Numbered from the stretch's first letter, positions 3 through 14,802 are shown. The stretch is 53,403 bases of DNA from Candidatus Zipacnadia bacterium (GCA_029820295.1 JALGVA010000013.1:1142-54544); one strand, 5' to 3'. A program made the numbers and translations. Notes: generated by a model not told the origin, from the letters alone.

Positions 3-416
3 GAGCCGGGCGTCGAGATGGTGGACCTCGACACGCTGCTGCGCGAGAGCGACGTGCTGGCGATCAACATCCACCTGACCGAGGAGAACCGCCATCTCAT
101 CGGGGCGGCCGAGTTCGCGAAGATGAAGCCGACCGCGTACCTGATCAACACCAGCCGCGGGGGGATCATCGACGAAGAGGCGTTCGTGGCGGCGTTAGAG
201 AAGGGCACGATCGCCGGCGCGGGCGTTGATGTGATCGAGGGCGAGTGGCGCGATGACCTCGCCGACCACCCGCTGATCCGCTACGCGAATACGCACGAGA
301 ACCTGGTGATCTCGCCGCACACCGGCGGGGTGACGGTCGAGGCCCAGCGCATGACCATCGAGTTCATGGTGTGCAAGCTGATCGCGTTCATGGAGGCCCG
401 CGATGACCAGGAATGA
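3..416 (+). CDS. D-isomer 2-hydroxyacid dehydrogenase, C-terminal part (cut by left window edge)
   Basis: The reading frame is open from base 3 with no stop, so the gene begins outside the window and only about 137 residues are seen. They cover the second half of the NAD-binding domain and the return to the catalytic domain. The family hallmarks are visible: the LINTSRGG segment that carries the catalytic Arg (near bases 138-165), the GVDVIEGEW segment with the catalytic Glu (near 222-250), and SPHTGG with the catalytic His (near 310-330). Family members reduce 2-keto acids or oxidise D-2-hydroxy acids with NAD(P)H; the exact substrate cannot be told from this part. The end overlaps the next gene by 14 bases, so the two are probably translationally coupled and act in the same sugar-acid pathway. 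It could equally be annotated as a phosphoglycerate-dehydrogenase-like or hydroxypyruvate-reductase-like enzyme. Confidence 0.88.
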   Translation, partial: EPGVEMVDLDTLLRESDVLAINIHLTEENRHLIGAAEFAKMKPTAYLINTSRGGIIDEEAFVAALEKGTIAGAGVDVIEGEWRDDLADHPLIRYANTHENLVISPHTGGVTVEAQRMTIEFMVCKLIAFMEARDDQE

Positions 417-1182
417 GACGGTCGGGAGGATCCTCTGCCGCGGCTTCGTGCCCATCGTTATCCAGGACCGGCTGCCGCCGCTGGAGTGCCTGCGCGTCGT
501 GGCCGAGGCCGGGATTGAGGCGGTCGAGATCTCATGCCGGCACCCCGAGGCGCCGGCGCTGATCGGTGCGGCCAAGCGCGAGTTCCCCGGGCTGGCGGTG
601 GGCGCGGCGACGCTGCTCGAGGACGGGCGGCTGCGCGAGTGGGTGAACGCCACCGGGCGGCCGGTGCCGAGCATCGACGAGGTGGTCGATGCAGGCGCGG
701 ACTTCCTGGTGTCGCTGCTGCCCTTCCGCGCCGGGACCTTCGAGAAGTACGCCGACAGCCACGCGATCATCTGCGGCGTGGCCACGCCCGGTGAGGGCCA
801 CCAGGCGCTCGACCACGGCGCGAACCTGCTCAAGTTCGTCAACCCCAGGCTCCTCGGCGGTGCGGCCTTCTTCAAGGGCCTCGATCCGGCGACGTACAAG
901 AGCTTCCCGTTCTTCGTGACCGGCGGCATGCGGCCCGAGCTGCTGGCCGAATACATCGAGGCGGGCATCCTGGCCGTCGGTGCGGGCTTCGACCTGATCC
1001 TCGGGCCGGCGTACGAGGCGATGCAGGATGACTTCGACGCCGCCCGGCTGCGCGATGCGGTGGTCGCCTACCTCGAGGTGCTGGAGGCCGCCCGCGCCGA
1101 GCACCAGGCGCACATCCCGTTCGCGAGCGAGGATGCGGCCGCCATCGCGCGGGCCAGCGGACGCTGCCTGAATGTCGGGTGA
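403..1182 (+). CDS. KDPG/KHG aldolase-like protein (class I aldolase)
   Basis: This 259-residue protein has the (beta/alpha)8-type segments of 2-keto-3-deoxy-6-phosphogluconate aldolases, which split a 2-keto-3-deoxy sugar acid (phosphate) into pyruvate and an aldehyde. The N-terminal stretch has AGIEAVEIS with Glu42 in the place of the family's catalytic Glu. HGANLLKFVNP supplies Lys144 as the Schiff-base lysine candidate, followed by a GG phosphate-loop-like turn. It is about 45 residues longer than Eda, mostly at the C-terminus. The ATG at 403 has a GGAGG six bases upstream, lying inside the upstream gene. With a 2-hydroxyacid dehydrogenase before it and a Gfo/Idh/MocA oxidoreductase after it, sugar-acid breakdown is the likely role. 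The substrate and whether it must be phosphorylated are unknown. Confidence 0.8.
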   Translation: MTRNETVGRILCRGFVPIVIQDRLPPLECLRVVAEAGIEAVEISCRHPEAPALIGAAKREFPGLAVGAATLLEDGRLREWVNATGRPVPSIDEVVDAGADFLVSLLPFRAGTFEKYADSHAIICGVATPGEGHQALDHGANLLKFVNPRLLGGAAFFKGLDPATYKSFPFFVTGGMRPELLAEYIEAGILAVGAGFDLILGPAYEAMQDDFDAARLRDAVVAYLEVLEAARAEHQAHIPFASEDAAAIARASGRCLNVG

Positions 1183-1199
1183 CGCGGAGGGACAGTGAG

Positions 1200-2261
1200 A
1201 TGGCCGGGACGGTCGGGCTGGGCATCATCGGCTGCGGGCAGATCGCGCCCGCGCACATTCGCAACTCCCAGGACGACCCGCGCGTGCGCTGGGTGGCGGC
1301 CTGCGATGTGCGCCCCGAGGCCGTGGAGCAGCGCGCGGACGAATTCGGCATCCCCCACCGCTACACGGCGGTCGAGGACCTGCTCGCCGACCCCGAGGTG
1401 GACGCGGTGATCGTGGCCACCGGCCCGGAGGCGCACGTGGGGCCGGCGGTCGCAGCCTTCGAAGCCGGCCGGCACGTGCTCGTGGAGAAGCCGGTGGCGG
1501 TCAACGCCGGGCAGGTGGAGGCTATGATGGCGGCGCAGCGCGAGGGGCTGGTCGGGGCGTGCTGCTCGGCGCGCTTCCGCTCCACGCCGGGCGCGCGGGC
1601 GGCGACGGAGCTGATCGCCTCGGGCGAGCTGGGGCCGGTGCGCCGGCTGAGCGCGGACGTGCTGCTGCCGCCGCCCGCGAACTACGACGGCACCTCTCCG
1701 TTCTTCCTGCACCGGCCGGGCTGGGGCGGACAGGGCATACTGGCCGACTGGGGCTGCTACGACCTCGATTTCCTGCTGGGCATCGCCGGCTGGGCGCACG
1801 ACCCCGAGCTGGTGCTGGCCGCGATGGGGGGCGTGCCCGCGCGCTACCGGGCCATCGCCGAGCCGGTCAACGACGTCGAGGTGGGGGTGGCCGCGCAGGC
1901 GCGCATGACCGGCGGCGCGGCGCTCGACTACCGGCGCGCGACCTTCGCAGCGGTGGACGCGCAGCGCGGCGCGTGGCGCATCGAGTGCGAGCATGGCGCG
2001 CTCGACCTCGACCTCATGCCCGGCTCGCCGCAGGCGGTCGTGCACCGCTACGCCGCCGACGGCGTGCACAGCGAGACGCTGGTGGACGAGCCCTACGAGT
2101 GGCCGATCATCCACCGCGGGCCGGTGATCGACTTCGTCGAGGCGATCCTCGAGGGCCGGGCGCCGATGACCGGCCTGCGCCATGCGCTGGTGCTGCAGCG
2201 CCTGACCGACGCCATGTACGAGTCGGCGCGCACCGGCACGGCGGTCGTATGCGGCGGGTGA
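1200..2261 (+). CDS. Gfo/Idh/MocA-family NAD(P)-dependent oxidoreductase
   Basis: The 353-residue protein starts with a Rossmann fold (GIIGCGQIAPAH, residues 8-19) and has the family signature EKP at residues 96-98 (VLVEKPVAV). A C-terminal alpha/beta domain follows, as in glucose-fructose oxidoreductase and inositol dehydrogenase. A GTG at 1179 in the same frame would add seven residues, but GGAGG at 1186-1190 is correctly spaced for the ATG at 1200, so I chose that. The gene follows the aldolase stop by 17 bases and probably shares its transcript. Enzymes of this family oxidise or reduce sugars, inositols and their derivatives; substrate is not predictable here. Its stop faces the stop of the sialidase gene only six bases away. 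Confidence 0.9.
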   Translation: MAGTVGLGIIGCGQIAPAHIRNSQDDPRVRWVAACDVRPEAVEQRADEFGIPHRYTAVEDLLADPEVDAVIVATGPEAHVGPAVAAFEAGRHVLVEKPVAVNAGQVEAMMAAQREGLVGACCSARFRSTPGARAATELIASGELGPVRRLSADVLLPPPANYDGTSPFFLHRPGWGGQGILADWGCYDLDFLLGIAGWAHDPELVLAAMGGVPARYRAIAEPVNDVEVGVAAQARMTGGAALDYRRATFAAVDAQRGAWRIECEHGALDLDLMPGSPQAVVHRYAADGVHSETLVDEPYEWPIIHRGPVIDFVEAILEGRAPMTGLRHALVLQRLTDAMYESARTGTAVVCGG

Positions 2262-2267
2262 GCCGGG

Positions 2268-3395
2268 TCAGTCCAGCGCGTCCTGCCCGTCGGTGAGCCA
2301 CTCGAGGTTGAAGCGCGCGAAGGTGATCTTCTCGTAGCCAGGCGCGGGGCCGTCGGGCAGCCCGCGGTACTCGTAGAGCAGCCCGACGGTCATGTCCGGC
2401 AGCACGCTCAGGCAGCAGTAGGCGGTCGGGCCGGGGTTCACGACCTTCGCGACCGGCCAGCTCTGCCCCTCATCGTAGCTCAGGCGCACCGTCATGTTCT
2501 CGCGCGATTCGGGGTGCGCGGTGTTGGCGAAGAGCAGGCGGCTGCGCGCGTGGCCGTCGCGCCGGTCGGTCCAGCGGATGAAGCTCGCCTGGTTGCGCGG
2601 CTCGACCAGTGTCTCGTCGTCGCGCATCGCCGACCAGGTCTGCCCACCATCGGCGGTGGTCGCCACCGCCCGGCAGCGCGGTCCGCGCGTGCTGCGCATG
2701 TTCAGCATCAGCGAGCCGTCCTCCAGCTCGACCACCTGGCCCTCGTTCGTGTTGGGGCCGGGGCTGGCGCTTACGCGCCACGTCTCCCCGTGATCGTCGC
2801 TCCAGTAAAGGTGCGAGCCGTCGTCCCGGAAGTCCTTCGCGGTCCGCCGGTAGCCCGGCGCGATGAGCCGCCCGGCGCGCGTCTGGATGCCCATCCCCGG
2901 CCCGGCCATGGCGGCGATCCAGGCCGGATCCTTGACGGCGGGCGTGAGGTCGATCGGCTCCGACCAGGTGCGACCGTCGTCATCGCTGCGGATGGCGTGC
3001 AGGAAGAGCACGCGCCCCTGGTAGCCCGCCTGTGCGCCCCGGGCACGCTCGGGGTCCATCTCGCGCAGCACGGCCATGCTCGGATAGACGTGGTCGTAGA
3101 TGATCCAGACCGCGCCGGTCTGTCGATCTACGAGCATGCATGGGTCGCCTGCGGCCATCTCGCCGGGCAGGTCGATGAGCACCTCGCGCTCGCTCCAGGT
3201 CCGGCCCAGGTCGTCGCTGCGCTTGAGGACCATGTCGATGTTGTTGGGCGCATCGCCCGGGCGGTCAACGCGCGCATCGCACACCGCCAGCAACGTGCCC
3301 GCGTTGGTGGTCACCAGTGCCGGGATGCGGTACTCGGCGACACCATGCTCGCCGGCCACGAACACGTCGGTCTCCTCGAAGAGCGGCTGGGCCAT
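2268..3395 (-). CDS. Sialidase (neuraminidase)-family BNR-repeat protein
   Basis: This 375-residue protein is a six-bladed propeller of the exo-alpha-sialidase superfamily. Five Asp-box motifs (S/T-x-D-x-G-x-T/S-W) can be read: SDDLGRTW (residues 60-67), SDDDGRTW, SDDHGETW, TADGGQTW and SYDEGQSW. An N-terminal YRIPAL gives the RIP motif, whose Arg23 contacts the substrate carboxylate in sialidases, and CDARVDRPGD offers the usual acid/base Asp region. I chose the ATG at 3395 because GGGAGG lies about 8-12 bases upstream; an in-frame codon at 3434 lacks such a site. I see no signal peptide, so the protein may be cytoplasmic or exported by another route. Many environmental family members act on sugars other than sialic acid, so the activity is inferred. 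It is divergent from the LamG/phosphoesterase gene. Confidence 0.85.
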   Translation of the reverse strand: MAQPLFEETDVFVAGEHGVAEYRIPALVTTNAGTLLAVCDARVDRPGDAPNNIDMVLKRSDDLGRTWSEREVLIDLPGEMAAGDPCMLVDRQTGAVWIIYDHVYPSMAVLREMDPERARGAQAGYQGRVLFLHAIRSDDDGRTWSEPIDLTPAVKDPAWIAAMAGPGMGIQTRAGRLIAPGYRRTAKDFRDDGSHLYWSDDHGETWRVSASPGPNTNEGQVVELEDGSLMLNMRSTRGPRCRAVATTADGGQTWSAMRDDETLVEPRNQASFIRWTDRRDGHARSRLLFANTAHPESRENMTVRLSYDEGQSWPVAKVVNPGPTAYCCLSVLPDMTVGLLYEYRGLPDGPAPGYEKITFARFNLEWLTDGQDALD

Positions 3396-6940: not shown

Positions 6941-8917
6941 TCAGTAGACGAAGATCAGGTTGCCGGTGGCGCCGGTGATGGCGTCCACGATCAGCCAGGC
7001 GGTGCAGGCGAGGAACTGGCCGAGGAGAAGCCCGAGCATGAAGCGGATGGCGCGGTCGTAGACGCGGTAGCCGCCGTAGCGCAGCACTACCACCTTGATC
7101 AGCCAGCCGATGAGGATCGAGAACCACAGGTCCTGCACGGGCTGCGTGGGGGCGATGGCGTAGCCCAGCGGGTGCAGCGGCCAGCCGATGAAGCGCATGT
7201 GCACGGTGTTGAGCGCCCACATGATGGTTCCGCCGGCGACCATCCACAGCCACCAGCTCAGGCTGAAGCCGACCGGGTTCTGCAGCGAGGCGGCGGCGTA
7301 GGTGAAGGCGGCGCGTGGGCAGCCGCTGAACAGCCATGAGCTGAGCGAGACGCCGCCGCGGGCGTAAGACAGGATCAGCGTGGTGGCGGTCGCGACCAGG
7401 AGGGCGACCAGCAGCGTGGCCGCGGCCAGGGGCAGGAAGCGGCGGCGCGGCAGGCCGCTGTCCGCCCAGACCTTGAGCGAGTGCGCCGCGAAGGGCATGA
7501 GGAAGACGCGAATGTCGGCGCTCCACGCGAAACTGTAGGCCAGTGAGGCCATGCCCTTCGGCCCGACCCCGTGGCTGCCCAGCGCGTGCAGCACGAACGA
7601 CTGCGGGATGAGCGCCGCACGCGAGACCGGCACCCCGCCCTGCACCGCCGCGCGCGTGAGCGCCGTGAAGGTCACCAGCGCCGCGAACACCAGCAGCACC
7701 GAGCCAATGGCCGACAGCCCGCTGGCGGTCAGCCACCACACCATGCCGATCAGCCCCACGCCCAGACAGATGGCGCCGCCGATCATGGTCGCGCGGTCGC
7801 GCAGTTCCGGCGCCCCGCCGGGCAGCAGCGCGCGGAAGGAGCGCCCGATGTCGCCGCGTGCCGCCCACATGCTCGCGCCCACCAGGAAGATCATGGCGCC
7901 CATGGCCTGGTTGGAGACCGCCTGCGAGCCCGCCGAGTAGATCTCCTTGGCGCCCACCCCCACGCCCATGAGGCGCATCACCGGCGTCTCGAAGGCGCTG
8001 AACAGGGCGAAGAACCACAGGCTGAAGCCCAGGTCGGCGTTGATCAGGTAGGCGAAGGCGACCACCGAAAAGTTGATCCACAGCCGCAGCAGAAGTCGCT
8101 CCTGCTGCATGGGGATGAGCACGTCGTTACGCAGCTTGATCGCCGGGATGTGCGGGTAGTAGTGGTGCAGCCCGATCATCACCGAGGGCACGATCGCCAC
8201 CAGCGCGCCCATCCACAGCAGGCGGTTGCGCAGCAGGGGCGTGAGCAGTGCGCGCGGCGAGCCGTCGCGCACCATCTCCACGGGCAGGTACATCAGCGGG
8301 TAGACCAGGCGCTCGTGCTCGATCCACTGCCGGTGCACCAGGATCATCAGGCCGATGCTGGTGGCCGACAGCGCCACGGTGAAGATCAGCCACATGCCCA
8401 GCGGCAGCAGCCAGGGACGCCACGGCACGCCCGCGCCGGCACGCGTCGCCTCGTAGAACTCGCGCACCGCCTCCTCGTCCTGCACCGCGAGCCACTCGAC
8501 CGTGTTCTCGCCGATCAGCTCCTCCCAGTGGTTCTCGGGCGTGGCGTAGTACTGCGCGCCGGTCATGATGGGCAGGAGCTGGCCGACCAGGCCCCAGGTG
8601 ACCACCGACGAGGCCAGCAGCGCCGCCACGAAGATCACCAGCAGCTCGGAGCGGCGCAGGCCGACGCGCCGGCCGATGAGCTTGAGCAGCGGGTTGACCA
8701 TGGCGACGATCACGAAGAACACCGCGATGGTGCCGAAGGGCAGCGAGGTGTTGGCCGGACGGCTGCCGCGAATGACCAGGTTCGCGTAGGGGAAGAGGAA
8801 GCCCACCGCAGCCGAGACCACCAGGCTGAGCAGCACCACACGCGCGGTCACGCGCGGCTCCTGCGCAGAGCCGGTCGCGGCCGCCCGGTCGTCGGCGAGG
8901 TCGTGTTCGCGCGCCAT
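6941..8917 (-). CDS. DUF6785-like polytopic membrane protein, paralog 1
   Basis: A 658-residue integral membrane protein with roughly 12-14 hydrophobic segments spread over its full length, starting at about residue 25. It is a clear paralog of the protein at 12829-14802: both have ATPENxWEEL near residue 130, a W-x-E-x-L-x-YP cytoplasmic-loop motif, a WP-hydrophobic-HP-x-GYAI motif near the end, and a final LRYGG/TRYGG segment before the last helices. Proteins of this type (DUF6784/DUF6785) have no assigned function that I know; a transporter related to the oligopeptide-transporter superfamily is a guess. ATG 8917 is preferred over a GTG at 8935 because of the spacing from CCGGGA. It is divergent from the sugar kinase gene, suggesting joint control with it. 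Confidence 0.8.
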   Translation of the reverse strand: MAREHDLADDRAAATGSAQEPRVTARVVLLSLVVSAAVGFLFPYANLVIRGSRPANTSLPFGTIAVFFVIVAMVNPLLKLIGRRVGLRRSELLVIFVAALLASSVVTWGLVGQLLPIMTGAQYYATPENHWEELIGENTVEWLAVQDEEAVREFYEATRAGAGVPWRPWLLPLGMWLIFTVALSATSIGLMILVHRQWIEHERLVYPLMYLPVEMVRDGSPRALLTPLLRNRLLWMGALVAIVPSVMIGLHHYYPHIPAIKLRNDVLIPMQQERLLLRLWINFSVVAFAYLINADLGFSLWFFALFSAFETPVMRLMGVGVGAKEIYSAGSQAVSNQAMGAMIFLVGASMWAARGDIGRSFRALLPGGAPELRDRATMIGGAICLGVGLIGMVWWLTASGLSAIGSVLLVFAALVTFTALTRAAVQGGVPVSRAALIPQSFVLHALGSHGVGPKGMASLAYSFAWSADIRVFLMPFAAHSLKVWADSGLPRRRFLPLAAATLLVALLVATATTLILSYARGGVSLSSWLFSGCPRAAFTYAAASLQNPVGFSLSWWLWMVAGGTIMWALNTVHMRFIGWPLHPLGYAIAPTQPVQDLWFSILIGWLIKVVVLRYGGYRVYDRAIRFMLGLLLGQFLACTAWLIVDAITGATGNLIFVY

Positions 8918-8943
8918 CGTGTGTGTCCCGGCCACGTCCCTGT

Positions 8944-9001
8944 GGATGATGTCGGGTCACTCGCGGGCGGGGCATTTCCGGCTCGGCGGCCATCATCCTG
9001 C
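8944..9001. promoter_or_regulatory. Candidate operator in the divergent DUF6785 / kinase promoter region
   Basis: An 8-bp perfect inverted repeat, GGATGATG (8944-8951) and CATCATCC (8991-8998), is spaced by 39 bases in the gap between divergent genes. The right arm belongs to a 13-nt block (8989-9001) identical on the opposite strand to 3493-3505. The left arm continues as GGATGATGTCGG, close to GGATGATGGCGG at 3496-3507. The arrangement suits a dimeric regulator or DNA loop, but this is inference. Confidence 0.35.
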
Positions 9002-9085
9002 ATCAACGGCGCCCGCGACCGGGCGGAGGAATCGCCGCGCCATCACGGAAGTGTGGCGCTCACGTGCATCCGGTCGGCGGGTGAG

Positions 9086-10099
9086 GTGCCGAAGCTGCGC
9101 TACGTGTTGGGCGTTGATGGTGGCGGTTCCAAGTGTGACGCGGTGCTCATCGCAGAGGATGGCACGGTGGTCGGCTGGGGCCGCGGCGGGCCCACGGCCC
9201 ACTGGTACGACACCCCCGAGGTGATCGCGACCTCCTACGCGGACGCGCTCACCGCCGCGCTGGCGGGGGTCCATGACGCACGCATCTGGGTCGCCGGCCA
9301 CTGCCGCACCGCCGGGGCCCGGGAGATCATCGAGGCCGCGGGCGAGGTCATCGGGCGCAGCTTCGCGGGCGAGATTGAGGTCGCCTTCGCCTCGGCGGGC
9401 GAGGACCACGGGCTGATCGTGCTCGCGGGCACCGGCTCGTTCGTGCATCTGCGCACCGCCGACGGCCGCACCCGGCACGTCGGCGGCATGGGCCCCGTGC
9501 TGGGCGACTACGGCAGCGCCTACGAGGTCGGCCTGCGCGGATTGCGCGCGGCCTTCGCGGGGCACTGGCTGGCGTCGCGCCGGACGTCCCTGTGCGCCGC
9601 CATCCCCGCCGCGCTGGGCGTCGCGGAGCTGCGCGAGATCTTCGACCTGGTCTACGTGCAGCGCCGCCTGGACCGCCGGGCGATCGCGGCCCTGGCCAGC
9701 ACGGTCGACAGGGAGGCCGAAGCCGGTGATGCCATCGCGGTGCAGTGCGTGCGCGCCGCCGCGGATGACCTGGCCGAGCTGGCAGTCGAGCTGATCAGCG
9801 AGATGGGCGCGGGCGATGAGGACCTGGCGGTCATCGCCTCGGGCAGCGTGGCGCAGCGCTCGCGCATCTGGTGGGCGCACATGTGCGCGCGCATCGCGGA
9901 GGTCGCGCCGCGCATGAGGCCGATCATCCCGGCGGTGCGGCCGGTGGTGGGCGCGGCGCTGCTGGCGCTGCGCGACATGGGCGTGGCGGTCACGCCGGAG
10001 CTGATCGACCGCATCGTGGCCACCCAGCAGGAGCACTACCAGCGCGCCGCTGAGGCGGCCGCAGCAAGGGCGGAGGATGGTGCAGATGCTGGCGCATGA
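9086..10099 (+). CDS. BadF/BadG-family sugar kinase (N-acetylglucosamine-kinase-like)
   Basis: A 337-residue ASKHA-fold ATPase. The N-terminal phosphate-1 motif YVLGVDGGGSKC (residues 6-17) is typical of N-acetylglucosamine kinases and other BadF/BcrA family members. Also seen are LIVLAGTGSF, the phosphate-2-like loop, and LAVIASGSVAQ, the C-terminal adenosine-binding loop. The substrate is probably an amino sugar or its N-acyl derivative, phosphorylated with ATP in the cytoplasm. I chose GTG at 9086 because it places the motif where family members have it; GTG at 9053 in the same frame is an alternative, and neither has a strong ribosome site. The gene overlaps the first SIS gene by 14 bases. 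Kinase plus SIS pairs are common in amino-sugar and N-acetylmuramic acid recycling. Confidence 0.82.
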   Translation: MPKLRYVLGVDGGGSKCDAVLIAEDGTVVGWGRGGPTAHWYDTPEVIATSYADALTAALAGVHDARIWVAGHCRTAGAREIIEAAGEVIGRSFAGEIEVAFASAGEDHGLIVLAGTGSFVHLRTADGRTRHVGGMGPVLGDYGSAYEVGLRGLRAAFAGHWLASRRTSLCAAIPAALGVAELREIFDLVYVQRRLDRRAIAALASTVDREAEAGDAIAVQCVRAAADDLAELAVELISEMGAGDEDLAVIASGSVAQRSRIWWAHMCARIAEVAPRMRPIIPAVRPVVGAALLALRDMGVAVTPELIDRIVATQQEHYQRAAEAAAARAEDGADAGA

Positions 10100-10826
10100 C
10101 TACGCCGAGGCGGTTCGCGAGGTAACCCGTCGCATCGAGGAGACGCAGATGGGGGCCATCGGGGCGGCGGCGCAGGCCATCGCCGATGCGCTTACCTCCG
10201 GCGGAGCGTTGTGGGTGCACAACATCGGCCACGGGGGCGAGCAGGAGCTGACGCATCGCGCCGGCGGGCTGCTGGCCACCAGGATCTTCTCATTCACCTG
10301 CAACGTGAGCAGCCCCATCGCCGACTGCCTGCGCGGCCGCCCGCGTCCCGAGACGGTCGAGCCGGCGCTCGAGCGCATCCGCCTGGCGCTGCGCACCAGC
10401 GAGCTGCGCGCGGGCGATGTGCTCATGCTCGCCTCGGTCAGCGGACGCACGTCGGGCACCGTCGAGCTGGCGCGCGCGGCCTCGGAGATGGGCGTGACCG
10501 TCATCGGCCTGACCTCGCTGGAGTACACCGCGCAGATCGAGTCCGACCATCCGTCGGGCGAGAAGCTGTGCGACGCCGCCGACATCGTCATCGACAACTG
10601 CGCGCCCTTCGGCGACGCCTGCCTCGAAGCGGAGGCCTACGAGCACAGGGTGCTGCCGATCTCGGGCGTGGCGATGACCACCATCGCCTGGATGATCTGC
10701 GCGGACGTGATCGACCGCATGACCGCGCTGGGCACGCCGCCGCACGTCTATATGAGCGTCAACCGGCCGGGCGGGCGCGAGTACAACGCACAGGCCGAGC
10801 GCGAGTACAACGAGCAGGGATACTGA
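10086..10826 (+). CDS. SIS-domain protein 1 (sugar isomerase / phosphosugar binding)
   Basis: A 246-residue protein with one SIS domain. The phosphosugar-binding loop is ASVSGRTSGTVELA, with the Ser/Thr-rich S-x-S-G-x-T pattern, and further conserved parts are VIGLTSLEYT and DIVIDNCAPFGDA. SIS proteins bind or isomerise sugar phosphates or cleave their ethers. The ATG at 10077 touches the ribosome site, so I chose the ATG at 10086, nine bases after GGAGG (10072-10076). It overlaps the kinase by 14 bases and is followed after 17 bases by a paralog with the same length and motifs. The two may form a hetero-oligomer. The reaction is not predictable from the sequence. Confidence 0.85.
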   Translation: MLAHDYAEAVREVTRRIEETQMGAIGAAAQAIADALTSGGALWVHNIGHGGEQELTHRAGGLLATRIFSFTCNVSSPIADCLRGRPRPETVEPALERIRLALRTSELRAGDVLMLASVSGRTSGTVELARAASEMGVTVIGLTSLEYTAQIESDHPSGEKLCDAADIVIDNCAPFGDACLEAEAYEHRVLPISGVAMTTIAWMICADVIDRMTALGTPPHVYMSVNRPGGREYNAQAEREYNEQGY

Positions 10827-10843
10827 GCGCACGAGGTGATCCC

Positions 10844-11581
10844 ATGTCGGCACAGGCGTATCTCGAAGCGGCCGCGGCGGGCATCGAGCGGCTGCACACG
10901 CAACTCCCGGCCATCGAAGAGGCCGCGGACGCCCTGACCGGGGCCATCGTCGCCGGGCAGGCCGTCTTCGCGTTCGGCGCCAGCCACTCGTTCATGCTCG
11001 CCGAGGAGATGATCTACCGCACCGGCGGGCTGATGCTGGTCAACCCGATCTTCCCGCACGGCATGAACCTGTCGGTGCGACCGATGACGCTCACCTCGCA
11101 GCTCGAGCGCGTCGAGGGCCTGGGGGCGACGCTGCTGCGCGGCAACCCGGTGCGAGAGGGCGACGTCCTCATCATCGCCTCGACCTCGGGCCGCAACGCC
11201 GTGGCCATCGACATGGCGCTGGCCGCGCGCGAGATCGGCGTCACCGTCATCGCCATCACCGCGCTGGAGTACTCGCAGCAGGTCGAGAGCCGCCACTCGT
11301 CCGGGAAGAAGCTCTACGAGCTGAGCGACATCGTCATCGACAACTGCGCGCCGCTGGGCGACGCGGCGGTGCAGGTCGAGGGCTTCGTGCAGGCGGTCGG
11401 GCCGCTGTCGTCCGTGCTGGGCTGCGCGGTGGTGAACGCGATTGCGACGCAGGTGGTCGCCAACCTGGTCGCGCGCGGGGTGACGCCACCGGTGTTCGTG
11501 AGCGCGAACATGCCCGGCGGCGACGAGCACAACGCGCGCCTGCTGGCCGAGAACCGCGAGCGCATCTTCTACATGGACTGA
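10844..11581 (+). CDS. SIS-domain protein 2 (tandem paralog)
   Basis: A 245-residue SIS-domain protein that aligns along its length with its neighbour. Examples are IIASTSGRNAVAIDMAL against LASVSGRTSGTVELARA, GVTVIAITALEYSQQVES against GVTVIGLTSLEYTAQIES, and DIVIDNCAPLGDA against DIVIDNCAPFGDA. The phosphate loop differs (RNAVAI in place of RTSGTV), so the two copies probably have divided roles, for example catalytic and structural or regulatory halves. ATG 10844 has GAGGTG a few bases upstream, and the frame has no other good start nearby. It sits in the kinase-SIS-SIS operon, six bases (or 15 to the chosen start) before the next gene. Confidence 0.85.
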   Translation: MSAQAYLEAAAAGIERLHTQLPAIEEAADALTGAIVAGQAVFAFGASHSFMLAEEMIYRTGGLMLVNPIFPHGMNLSVRPMTLTSQLERVEGLGATLLRGNPVREGDVLIIASTSGRNAVAIDMALAAREIGVTVIAITALEYSQQVESRHSSGKKLYELSDIVIDNCAPLGDAAVQVEGFVQAVGPLSSVLGCAVVNAIATQVVANLVARGVTPPVFVSANMPGGDEHNARLLAENRERIFYMD

Positions 11582-11596
11582 CGGGGAGTGCCCGCG

Positions 11597-12832
11597 ATGC
11601 AGGTCACCATCGCCCGCCACGCGCTGGACCGCGTGCCGCTGTCGCTTATCATCGACGACTCCACGCTGCTGGTGAACCTCAACTACTTCTTCATGCGCGA
11701 CCGCAACCGCGTGGACGGGCAGGGCCGGCGCTGGGAGGACGTGCCGGTCGTGCACCCCGAGAGCTTCACCCGCGAGTTCGCGCAGTTCTGCCTCGATGCG
11801 GGCGTGCGCGGCAAGTTCAGCGTGGTGCCCTGCCCGGCGGCCATCGGGCGCATCGACCACGGCCTGCCGCTCTTCGACCGGCGGCAGCAGGAGGGCTGGC
11901 TGGCGATGTGCCGTGAGCTGATCGTGCCCGCCTTCGACATCACGCCGGAGATGATCACGCACACGAAGATCGTAGACCCGGAGACCTGCGCGCCCGTCGA
12001 GCCCGAGGCGTGGGAGCAGTACGAGTGGGAGGCGCTGCCCGACGACGAGGAGCTGGTGCACCGTTACATCGCGACCGCCTGCCGCATCCTCGACAACGTC
12101 GGCCTGCCGCCCGAGGGCGTCACCTCGCCGGGCGGCTTCGGCGGGAAGACCCTCGAGTTCTACGCGCGCCTGGCCGGCGAGGCGGTGCGCGAGGTGACCG
12201 GCAACCCCACTCCCTACTTCTTCAAGCGTGTGAGCGACGGCGCGGTCGAGACGCCCGTCTGGTACGCCGACCGCGACACCGGCACTGCAGTGGGCGAGAT
12301 CATCGCCGGCACCGGCGACTGGACCGGCTCGTGGACCGGCTACGGTGAGGTGAACCCGGACCGTTACATCACCGCCGACCTGCGCGGCGGACGGGTGCCG
12401 GCGGTGATCGACGCCGGGGATCCGGCGGTGCTGTGCAGCCACTGGCAGGGCTTCTACGGCATGCACAACCATGACCGCCGCGGCTTCCGGGCGCTGCAGA
12501 CGGTGGTGCGCCGGCTGCGCGAGCGCGACCCGCGCGGCGAGCACACGCGCTGGCGAAAGTGCAGCGAGATCACCAACTACGCCTGCGCGCGCGAGATGGC
12601 GCAGGTCACCGTCGAAGGCGGGCGCATCACGCTCGACCTGCCGGTGCTCGCGCCGGAGCTGACGCTGCGCATCGAGGGCGCGCCGGTCACAGGCGTCAGC
12701 GTCGATGGGGTGCCGCTGCGGCGGGCGGCCGATCGCGCCGGCTTCGAGGACGGGACCTTCCTGGCCGACGAGGACGGCGCGCTCGCGGCCTTCACGCCGA
12801 CGCAGCGCCGCGTCGAGGTCGCGGTCGCATGA
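11597..12832 (+). CDS. Unrecognised cytoplasmic protein, possibly polysaccharide-deacetylase-fold
   Basis: A 411-residue protein that I do not recognise with certainty. The beginning (VPLSLIIDDSTLLVNLNYFF) has an acidic pair after a beta-strand, followed later by VRGKFSVVPCPA, which resembles the strand order of NodB-like deacetylases and related (beta/alpha) barrels. Other marked parts are TSPGGFGGKTLEFYARLAG, TGSWTGYGEVNPDRYI and SHWQGFYGMHNHDRRGF, the last with a cluster of possible metal-binding His and Asp residues. The C-terminal ~80 residues are beta-rich. No signal peptide is seen. ATG 11597 is eight bases after GGGGAG. The stop overlaps the start of the next gene (ATGA), so it is translated with the second DUF6785-like protein. 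A hydrolase or deacetylase on the same sugar as the kinase is only a working guess. Confidence 0.6.
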   Translation: MQVTIARHALDRVPLSLIIDDSTLLVNLNYFFMRDRNRVDGQGRRWEDVPVVHPESFTREFAQFCLDAGVRGKFSVVPCPAAIGRIDHGLPLFDRRQQEGWLAMCRELIVPAFDITPEMITHTKIVDPETCAPVEPEAWEQYEWEALPDDEELVHRYIATACRILDNVGLPPEGVTSPGGFGGKTLEFYARLAGEAVREVTGNPTPYFFKRVSDGAVETPVWYADRDTGTAVGEIIAGTGDWTGSWTGYGEVNPDRYITADLRGGRVPAVIDAGDPAVLCSHWQGFYGMHNHDRRGFRALQTVVRRLRERDPRGEHTRWRKCSEITNYACAREMAQVTVEGGRITLDLPVLAPELTLRIEGAPVTGVSVDGVPLRRAADRAGFEDGTFLADEDGALAAFTPTQRRVEVAVA

Positions 12833-14802
12833 GCAGCCAGCGGCTGCTGCACGCCGCCGCGGAGCCCGGCGACCAGCCCGCGCCGGCGCGCACCCTGACC
12901 GTCCGCGCGGTGACCATCGCCTGCCTGCTCATCCCCCTGAACGCCTACTGGATCACCCAGATGGCGGTGATCCGCTACCAGGGCCATCCGACCACGGTGT
13001 CGCTGTTCTTCAACGCGGTCTTCATCCTCTTCGTGCTGCGCATCGTGAACGACGCGGTGCGCTTCGTCTTCCCCCGAGCGGCGCTGCACCGCAACGAACT
13101 GATCGTGATCTACGCGATGGTGACGGTGGCGTCGGCGCTGTGCGGGCACGACCTGGTGCAGGTGGTCGCGCCGCAGATCATCATGCCCTACTGGCTGGCC
13201 ACGCCCGAGAACCAGTGGGAGGAGCTGTTCTTCCAGCACCTGCCGGGGCACCTGACCATCGGCGATCCGGAGATCTACCGCCCGGCGTTCGAGGGCGGCG
13301 TGAGCCTCTACACGCGTGAGCGGCTGCTGGCCTGGCTGCCGCCGGTGGCGAGCTGGGGCGGCTTCCTGTTCGTGCTGGCGACGATGATGCTGGCGATCAA
13401 CGCGCTCATCCGCCGGCGCTGGATGGACGAGGAGAAGCTCACCTACCCGATCACGCACATGCCGCTGGAGCTGACGGCCGACGACGGCGCGCTGCTGCGC
13501 AGCCGCATGATGTGGCTGGGCTTCGCGCTGGCGGGGTCGATTGACCTGATCAACGGCCTGCATGAGCTGTGGCCGTTCTGGCCGTTGATCAAGGTGCGCG
13601 TGGTGCACTTCGACGCCTTCATGCGCAGCTTCTTTGTGGGCTACCCGTGGACGGCGCTGCGCGGCACCCGGCTGTCGTTCTACCCCTTCGCCATCGGCCT
13701 GGGGATGCTGCTACCGCTGGACCTGGCGTTCTCATGCTGGTTCTTCTACCTGTTCTGGAAGGCCCAGGGGCTGCTGAGCCTGATGCTCGGACTCAGCCGC
13801 ATCCCCGGCTTCCCCTACGTGAACGAGCAGTCTTCAGCGGCCTACCTGGGGCTGGCGGGCTTCGCGCTGTGGATCGGTCGCGGCTACTTCGCGCGCATCT
13901 GGCGCGGGCTGCTACGCGGACGGCCGGGTGATGCGGGCGAGCCCATGAGCTACCCGCTGGCGGTGCTGGTCATCGGCGGGGGGCTGCTCTTCCTCGCGCT
14001 GTTCACCACTGCGATGGGCATGTGGCTGTGGCTGGCGGGCCTGTTCTTCGTGCTCTACTTCCTGCTGTCGATGGCGGTCACGCGCGTGCGCGCCGAGCTG
14101 GGCCCGCCCGCCCACGACCTGCACCGCGGCGGGCCGGACCTCATCCTCACCAACCTGCTGGGCACCGACGGCACCATCCTGCCGCCGCGCCAGCTCACCG
14201 CGCTGAGCCTGATGTTCTGGTTCAACCGCGCCTACCGCGCCCACCCCATGCCGGTGCAGCTCGAGGCCCTCAAGATCGCCGACAGTTCGGGGATCCGGCA
14301 GTCGCACATGGCCATCGCCCTGACCATCGCGGCCTTCCTCGGCGTCTTCGCGGCGTTCTGGGCGCAGGTGCATGGCTACTACAGCTACGGCATCGCGGCG
14401 AAGATGAGCGGCGTCGCCACCATCTTCGGCCGCGAGCCCTTCCAGCGCCTGCAGAGCTGGCTGGCCTACCCCACGGGCACCGACTGGCCGCGCGTGGGTG
14501 CCTACCTCGCCGGGCTCGGCTTCACCTGGCTGCTGATGATGGCGCGCGTGCGCTTCGTCACCTGGCCCTTCCACCCGGTCGGCTACGCCATCTCCAGCAG
14601 TTGGTCGATGAACTGCCTGTGGATGCCGATCTTCATCGCCTGGCTGGCCAAGCTGATCATCACGCGCTACGGCGGCCACCGCGCCTTCCAGCGCGCGATC
14701 CCGTTCGCGCTCGGGCTGGTGCTGGGCGAGTTCGTGATCGGCAGCCTGTGGACCATCATCGGCATTGCGCTGCAGATCAACACCTACAGCTTCTGGGTGT
14801 AG
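12829..14802 (+). CDS. DUF6785-like polytopic membrane protein, paralog 2
   Basis: A 657-residue membrane protein, almost the same length as its paralog at 6941-8917. Hydrophobic segments run from about residue 25 to the C-terminus. Shared landmarks include LATPENQWEEL, WMDEEKLTYPITHMP, a long loop with ELGPPAHDLHRGGPD, FVTWPFHPVGYAI and TRYGGHRAFQRAI. Paralog 1 has VQGGVPVSRAALIPQ where this one has ELGPPAHDLHRGG, so substrate or partner may differ. It begins at the ATGA overlap with the preceding gene, which supports a functional link with the kinase-SIS cassette, for example as the uptake system. The stop lies only three bases from the stop of the converging CocE-type gene, leaving no room for separate terminators. 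Confidence 0.82.
   Translation: MSSQRLLHAAAEPGDQPAPARTLTVRAVTIACLLIPLNAYWITQMAVIRYQGHPTTVSLFFNAVFILFVLRIVNDAVRFVFPRAALHRNELIVIYAMVTVASALCGHDLVQVVAPQIIMPYWLATPENQWEELFFQHLPGHLTIGDPEIYRPAFEGGVSLYTRERLLAWLPPVASWGGFLFVLATMMLAINALIRRRWMDEEKLTYPITHMPLELTADDGALLRSRMMWLGFALAGSIDLINGLHELWPFWPLIKVRVVHFDAFMRSFFVGYPWTALRGTRLSFYPFAIGLGMLLPLDLAFSCWFFYLFWKAQGLLSLMLGLSRIPGFPYVNEQSSAAYLGLAGFALWIGRGYFARIWRGLLRGRPGDAGEPMSYPLAVLVIGGGLLFLALFTTAMGMWLWLAGLFFVLYFLLSMAVTRVRAELGPPAHDLHRGGPDLILTNLLGTDGTILPPRQLTALSLMFWFNRAYRAHPMPVQLEALKIADSSGIRQSHMAIALTIAAFLGVFAAFWAQVHGYYSYGIAAKMSGVATIFGREPFQRLQSWLAYPTGTDWPRVGAYLAGLGFTWLLMMARVRFVTWPFHPVGYAISSSWSMNCLWMPIFIAWLAKLIITRYGGHRAFQRAIPFALGLVLGEFVIGSLWTIIGIALQINTYSFWV

Follow-up and report, generated by a model that had tools for sequence, protein, structure and literature searches.

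A conserved kinase-SIS-SIS operon with appended neighbours in an Armatimonadota genome, and DUF6785 as a predicted divergent branch of the oligopeptide transporter superfamily

The 53,403 nucleotide stretch of Candidatus Zipacnadia bacterium analysed here (GCA_029820295.1, JALGVA010000013.1:1142-54544; hereafter the window) belongs to a 5.63 Mb Armatimonadota assembly that is 98.6% complete, and carries at 6941-14802 a cassette of six genes encoding two DUF6785 membrane proteins, a sugar kinase, two SIS proteins (SIS1 and SIS2) and a 411-residue protein (X411). The question raised by this locus is whether the six genes form a single pathway, as proposed in an initial annotation, in which a sugar or oligosaccharide taken up by DUF6785 is phosphorylated by the kinase and then converted by the SIS pair and X411. 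The answer reached, which is held with moderate confidence, is that the locus is composite, with a conserved kinase-SIS1-SIS2 core resembling MurK-MurQ to which X411 and a DUF6785 gene of the oligopeptide transporter (OPT) type have been appended. As such the kinase-SIS-SIS operon and the transporter fold of the single-pathway proposal survive, while the linkage of DUF6785 and the partnership of X411 do not.

The kinase, of the BadF/NagK/MurK type (BadF/BcrA; 9086-10099, + strand; PF01869, 2.3e-26), is followed on the same strand by SIS1 (10077-10826; NF002805, 7.3e-56), a divergent NagS/UPF0309-type protein, and SIS2 (10844-11581; NF002805, 4.8e-88), also of the NagS/UPF0309 type, with matches to the NagS structure 9eol at 1.3e-28 and 1.7e-51, respectively. 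Among 291 Armatimonadota genomes, kinase homologues were found in 216 and SIS2 homologues in 116, and linkage was tested on 40 fetched SIS2 loci with genes called by a home-made caller that can miss genes. The gene calls place kinase, SIS1 and SIS2 on the same strand in 25 of the 40 loci with gaps mostly below 130 bases, other genes separating SIS1 and SIS2 in one of the 25, while match coordinates read together show the triplet to be adjacent in four more (L187, L192, L193 and L196), giving 29 of 40. Most of the rest lie on short contigs, are split, or hold SIS genes singly or in pairs. The flanks of the triplet vary by locus, with GH3, GH42-like, PfkB, FtsZ and PFL-like genes among those seen, together with a rhamnose-isomerase-like gene assigned by sequence reading only. 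Kinase-SIS1-SIS2 is a conserved same-strand phosphosugar operon in Armatimonadota, in keeping with the initial annotation of kinase plus SIS as a phosphosugar pathway; for its substrate an amino sugar is the likeliest candidate.

Constant linkage of DUF6785 to kinase and SIS genes, which the initial annotation had put forward for checking and the absence of which it had named as counting against its hypothesis, was not found. No kinase or SIS homologue lies beside any of the other 32 DUF6785 genes of the same genome or near DUF6785 in 20 stretches sampled elsewhere, and only one of the 40 SIS loci (L185) has DUF6785 within 7 kb, some 1.3 kb upstream of the module. The operonic neighbours of DUF6785 are mixed, TldD/PmbA and Gfo/Idh/MocA being the sole repeats (2 of 33 each). 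Likewise X411, present as one copy in this genome, has homologues in 27 of the 291 phylum genomes and at 52 loci in other named genomes (Poribacteria, Latescibacterota, Gemmatimonadota, Chloroflexi and others) at mostly 62-80% identity, yet at none of the 52 does the stretch examined contain the kinase or SIS gene that a pathway partner would be expected to have nearby, and four have DUF6785. No constant neighbour of X411 was found among the loci examined, and in a genome of the same family (G004) X411 is on a different contig from the module. DUF6785 and X411 are not fixed partners of the sugar module.

The two cassette DUF6785 genes encode membrane proteins with both DUF6785 and DUF6784, one transcribed divergently from the rest (6941-8935, - strand; PF20581, 2.7e-102; PF20580, 1.7e-29) and the other last in the cassette (12829-14802, + strand; PF20581, 6.8e-150; PF20580, 9.2e-35), and both are predicted to be OPT-superfamily-like transporters. 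A model of the latter, built on an alignment of six sequences with paralogues from its own genome left out, has a predicted local distance difference test score (pLDDT) of 81 and a predicted template modelling score of 0.86. In Foldseek searches this model matched 7wst over most of its length (E 1.2e-8, TM 0.66/0.71, 13% identity), with barley Yellow Stripe 1 (YS1; 7wst and 7wsr) providing the only PDB fold matches below 0.001 and the YS core/scaffold fold being present in the predicted structure; the transporter-like fold sought by structure prediction was thereby recovered. In 12 of 151 genomes at least one protein matched the Pfam OPT profile (PF03169) over its cut-off, nine of these matches being on DUF6785 proteins of relatives and one locus (L241) holding a true OPT, and the OPT-profile alignments to DUF6785 that were examined are collinear. 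The window's own DUF6785 copies fall below the cut-off of this profile, and a DUF6785 profile had no match among PDB sequences. By predicted structure and profile matches, DUF6785/DUF6784 probably forms a divergent branch within the OPT (oligopeptide/yellow-stripe) superfamily and, by predicted fold, would be a transporter. The family is abundant, with 34 copies in this genome, presence in 59 of 61 relatives (up to 48 first-look candidates per genome) and, from named records, in 24 of 28 X411-bearing genomes, where first-look candidates reach 57 in the Poribacteria genome of locus L150. No DUF6785 relatives were found in a scan of IMG/VR, and a literature search returned no paper naming DUF6785, DUF6784 or their Pfam accessions.

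The OPT assignment bears on what DUF6785 may carry. Known OPT cargo comprises peptides, glutathione, folate and metal chelates, and not sugar, so sugar import by DUF6785 is possible but unsupported, and the sugar or oligosaccharide of the single-pathway proposal sits poorly with fold relatives that carry peptides or metal chelates. By analogy, OPT precedent favours peptides, peptide conjugates and chelates over free sugars. Barley YS1 is proposed to function as a dimer that moves Fe(III)-phytosiderophore in an elevator-like manner (PMC9691689), and DUF6785/DUF6784 would be expected to act as an elevator-type secondary importer, its fold being predicted and its transport and direction presumed. 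A TldD/PmbA metallopeptidase gene lies directly upstream of DUF6785 at L016:3029-4366 (117 bases) and L211:7710-9047 (17 bases), and the occurrence of this arrangement in two distantly related genomes is a hint of peptide cargo.

X411 (11597-12832, + strand) has no Pfam or NCBIfam match, with Pfam searches down to E 5 giving chance matches only. Its AlphaFold2 model (pLDDT 91.7) is a (beta/alpha) barrel with a C-terminal beta-sandwich, for which Foldseek returned the GH29 fucosidase AlfB (top by E-value but with a poor root-mean-square deviation), the deacetylase NDST1, GH57 and YcsF. Conserved motifs DD, H, SPGG, DW and HW occur in NodB-like order with D20, D21, H122 and H282 invariant and the second His of NodB metal motif 2 absent. 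From model and motifs X411 is probably a carbohydrate hydrolase or deacetylase, perhaps NodB/GH57-like. A divergent UxuA-like gene (mannonate dehydratase, by sequence) adjoins X411 in several Latescibacterota only (L136, L138, L139, L145, L159 and others), and in G017 a fragment of a second X411 copy (L083:8862-9206) sits some 2.7 kb away from the complete gene.

Within the core module, the structural-database matches of the kinase are the N-acetylmuramic acid/N-acetylglucosamine (MurNAc/GlcNAc) kinase 8zo3 (1.8e-17), the archaeal hexokinase 2e2n and human NAGK 2ch5, and the BadF/ASKHA phosphate motifs DGGGSK, GTGS and GD-GS are kept across module kinases. The catalytic Asp of MurK is D95 (PMC10465942). 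The corresponding position in the window kinase is Glu (E96, codon 9371-9373), invariant in 17 aligned module kinases and as such a strict Asp to Glu swap. SIS1 and SIS2, which are 40% identical to each other, align full-length with NagS 9eol at 32% and 40% identity, respectively. NagS (SCO4393) dehydrates GlcNAc 6-phosphate, with H53, R64, E94 and D179 essential and N228 important (PMC12680351). All four essential residues are present in both window SIS proteins. SIS2 has every NagS active-site side chain, with H53, R64, S91, E94, S119, S121, D179 and N228 invariant in a set of 37 and S54 nearly so (Ala in 5), while window SIS1 also retains S119, S121 and N228 and is without S54 and S91. The 32 SIS1 proteins share H53, R64, S121, D179 and N228 without exception and S119 almost so; most have Gly in place of S54 and Asp in place of E94 (Glu in the window SIS1), and S91 is variable. 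By analogy with NagS, SIS1 and SIS2 probably work as a heteromer, since each NagS active site is formed by two subunits and SIS1 and SIS2 remain neighbouring genes.

On the composite reading, the kinase would phosphorylate an imported hexose at O6, most likely an N-acetylated amino sugar or a 3-O-substituted one, and SIS1 and SIS2 would act as a NagS/MurQ-type pair in which the 6-phosphosugar is opened with elimination or isomerisation at C1-C3. In this genome X411, an unrelated barrel enzyme, and a DUF6785 gene would then have been appended downstream of the module. The physical layout is tight. The six genes and their families are as first annotated, with reading frames, Pfam and NCBIfam matches in agreement, and the gaps of 17 bases (SIS1/SIS2) and 15 bases (SIS2/X411) and the ATGA overlap of X411 with the last DUF6785 gene were confirmed; the kinase/SIS1 overlap, given initially as 14 bases, is 23 from the ATG at 10077, or 14 with the fourth SIS1 codon (10086) as the start. 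Through the ATGA the last DUF6785 gene is probably translationally coupled to X411. The divergent gene, initially called a paralogue of the last one, is related to it but distant (27% identity), with four other copies in the genome closer to the last gene (37-42%).

This packing is an argument for all six genes being one unit, in which DUF6785 imports a sugar or oligosaccharide for the kinase, SIS pair and X411. Together with the coupling, the transporter fold of DUF6785 and the second genome (L185) with DUF6785 near the module, it keeps such a pathway in consideration, but the unconserved linkage of DUF6785 and X411, the separate contigs in G004 and the non-sugar cargo of known OPT proteins make it unlikely. 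A broader reading, about as unlikely, takes DUF6785/DUF6784 to be a large bacterial OPT branch, found in tens of paralogues per genome in Armatimonadota, Poribacteria, Latescibacterota and others, whose members diversified towards the import of carbohydrates or conjugates of sugars. The cassette would then be one instance, supplying the kinase and a SIS heteromer with lyase activity of a new specificity. Peptidoglycan recycling would have an OPT-like importer of muropeptides or glycopeptides, X411 deacetylating or trimming them, the kinase forming MurNAc or GlcNAc 6-phosphate and the SIS pair serving as an alternative MurQ-type etherase or dehydratase. The resemblance of the kinase to MurNAc/GlcNAc kinases and to NAGK, which phosphorylates muramyl dipeptide (PMC9477735), the NagS/MurQ-like SIS proteins, the peptides carried by OPT transporters and the lack of a true MurQ etherase over the cut-off in this genome (TIGR00274, best E 4.2e-4) are all consistent with recycling. 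Against it, five relatives including G026 carry MurQ together with the SIS2 type, MurQ in G026 adjoins a second BadF kinase, no peptidoglycan hydrolase was identified within the cassette and most module loci are without DUF6785, leaving recycling improbable. Lower still stands a regulatory SIS pair, a phosphosugar sensor controlling the kinase in the manner of GKRP with the kinase in housekeeping salvage; SIS domains often merely bind phosphosugars and SIS1 is without two NagS contact serines, but no DNA-binding domain is fused to the pair and the active-site side chains of SIS2 are kept in its 37 homologues save for Ser54, such that this is very unlikely.

Several observations weigh against the composite reading as well. 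The close packing of five genes, ATGA overlap included, speaks for X411 and DUF6785 serving the module here, and the Asp to Glu change in module kinases makes kinase activity itself uncertain. SIS2 is only 40% identical to NagS, of which homologues of 26-36% identity were inactive on GlcNAc 6-phosphate (PMC12680351). MurQ is missing from module genomes at a rate just slightly above that in others (p = 0.15). For the OPT assignment, the DUF6785 model was built from six sequences, and hhalign of DUF6785 against the one true OPT sequence of the phylum gave no similarity, probably because a single sequence carries little profile information.

Upstream of the cassette, KDPG-aldolase-like, Gfo/Idh/MocA and BNR sialidase-like genes at 403-3389 suggest sugar-acid or sialoside metabolism. 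The placement of DUF6785 would give a highly abundant, functionally uncharacterised family a home in a transporter superfamily for which structures have been solved, so that its function can be tested in several phyla known largely through metagenomes. Setting the conserved kinase-SIS-SIS operon apart from incidental neighbours narrows enzyme assays to three proteins.

Compared with known systems, the core is closest in plan to MurK-MurQ, in which a BadF/ASKHA amino-sugar kinase is likewise paired with a SIS-fold enzyme, and the kinase matches the MurNAc/GlcNAc kinase structure 8zo3; the MurNAc/GlcNAc kinase of Clostridium acetobutylicum is among the known examples. In Tannerella forsythia murTKQ is a transporter-kinase-etherase operon (PMC10465942). 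The module differs in having two UPF0309-type SIS genes in place of MurQ and Glu where MurK has its catalytic Asp. True MurQ adjoins a BadF kinase apart from the SIS1-SIS2 module at G026:C435:460-2257 and G054:C109:3539-5386. A role for the module as a MurQ replacement was considered and set aside, with MurQ in 5 of 31 module genomes and 10 of 30 others, a difference that is not significant; since MurQ sometimes occurs in relatives that also have the SIS2 type, the module is parallel to MurK-MurQ rather than a renamed MurQ.

SIS2 belongs to the same UPF0309-type family as NagS with all its catalytic residues, but differs in A65 to Thr and G227 to Ala and in that the SIS proteins here are paired paralogues sharing an operon with a kinase, for which GlcNAc 6-phosphate dehydration is putative. 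X411 resembles NodB deacetylases, GH57 and PxpA-YcsF in its barrel and motif order, differing in the missing metal-motif His, the extra beta-sandwich and the lack of a family model match. DUF6785 resembles OPT and yellow stripe-like transporters in its predicted fold and in the OPT profile reaching cut-off on some relatives, and differs from them in its low sequence identity, in its separate Pfam families (DUF6785 and DUF6784) and in the dozens of paralogues carried per genome.

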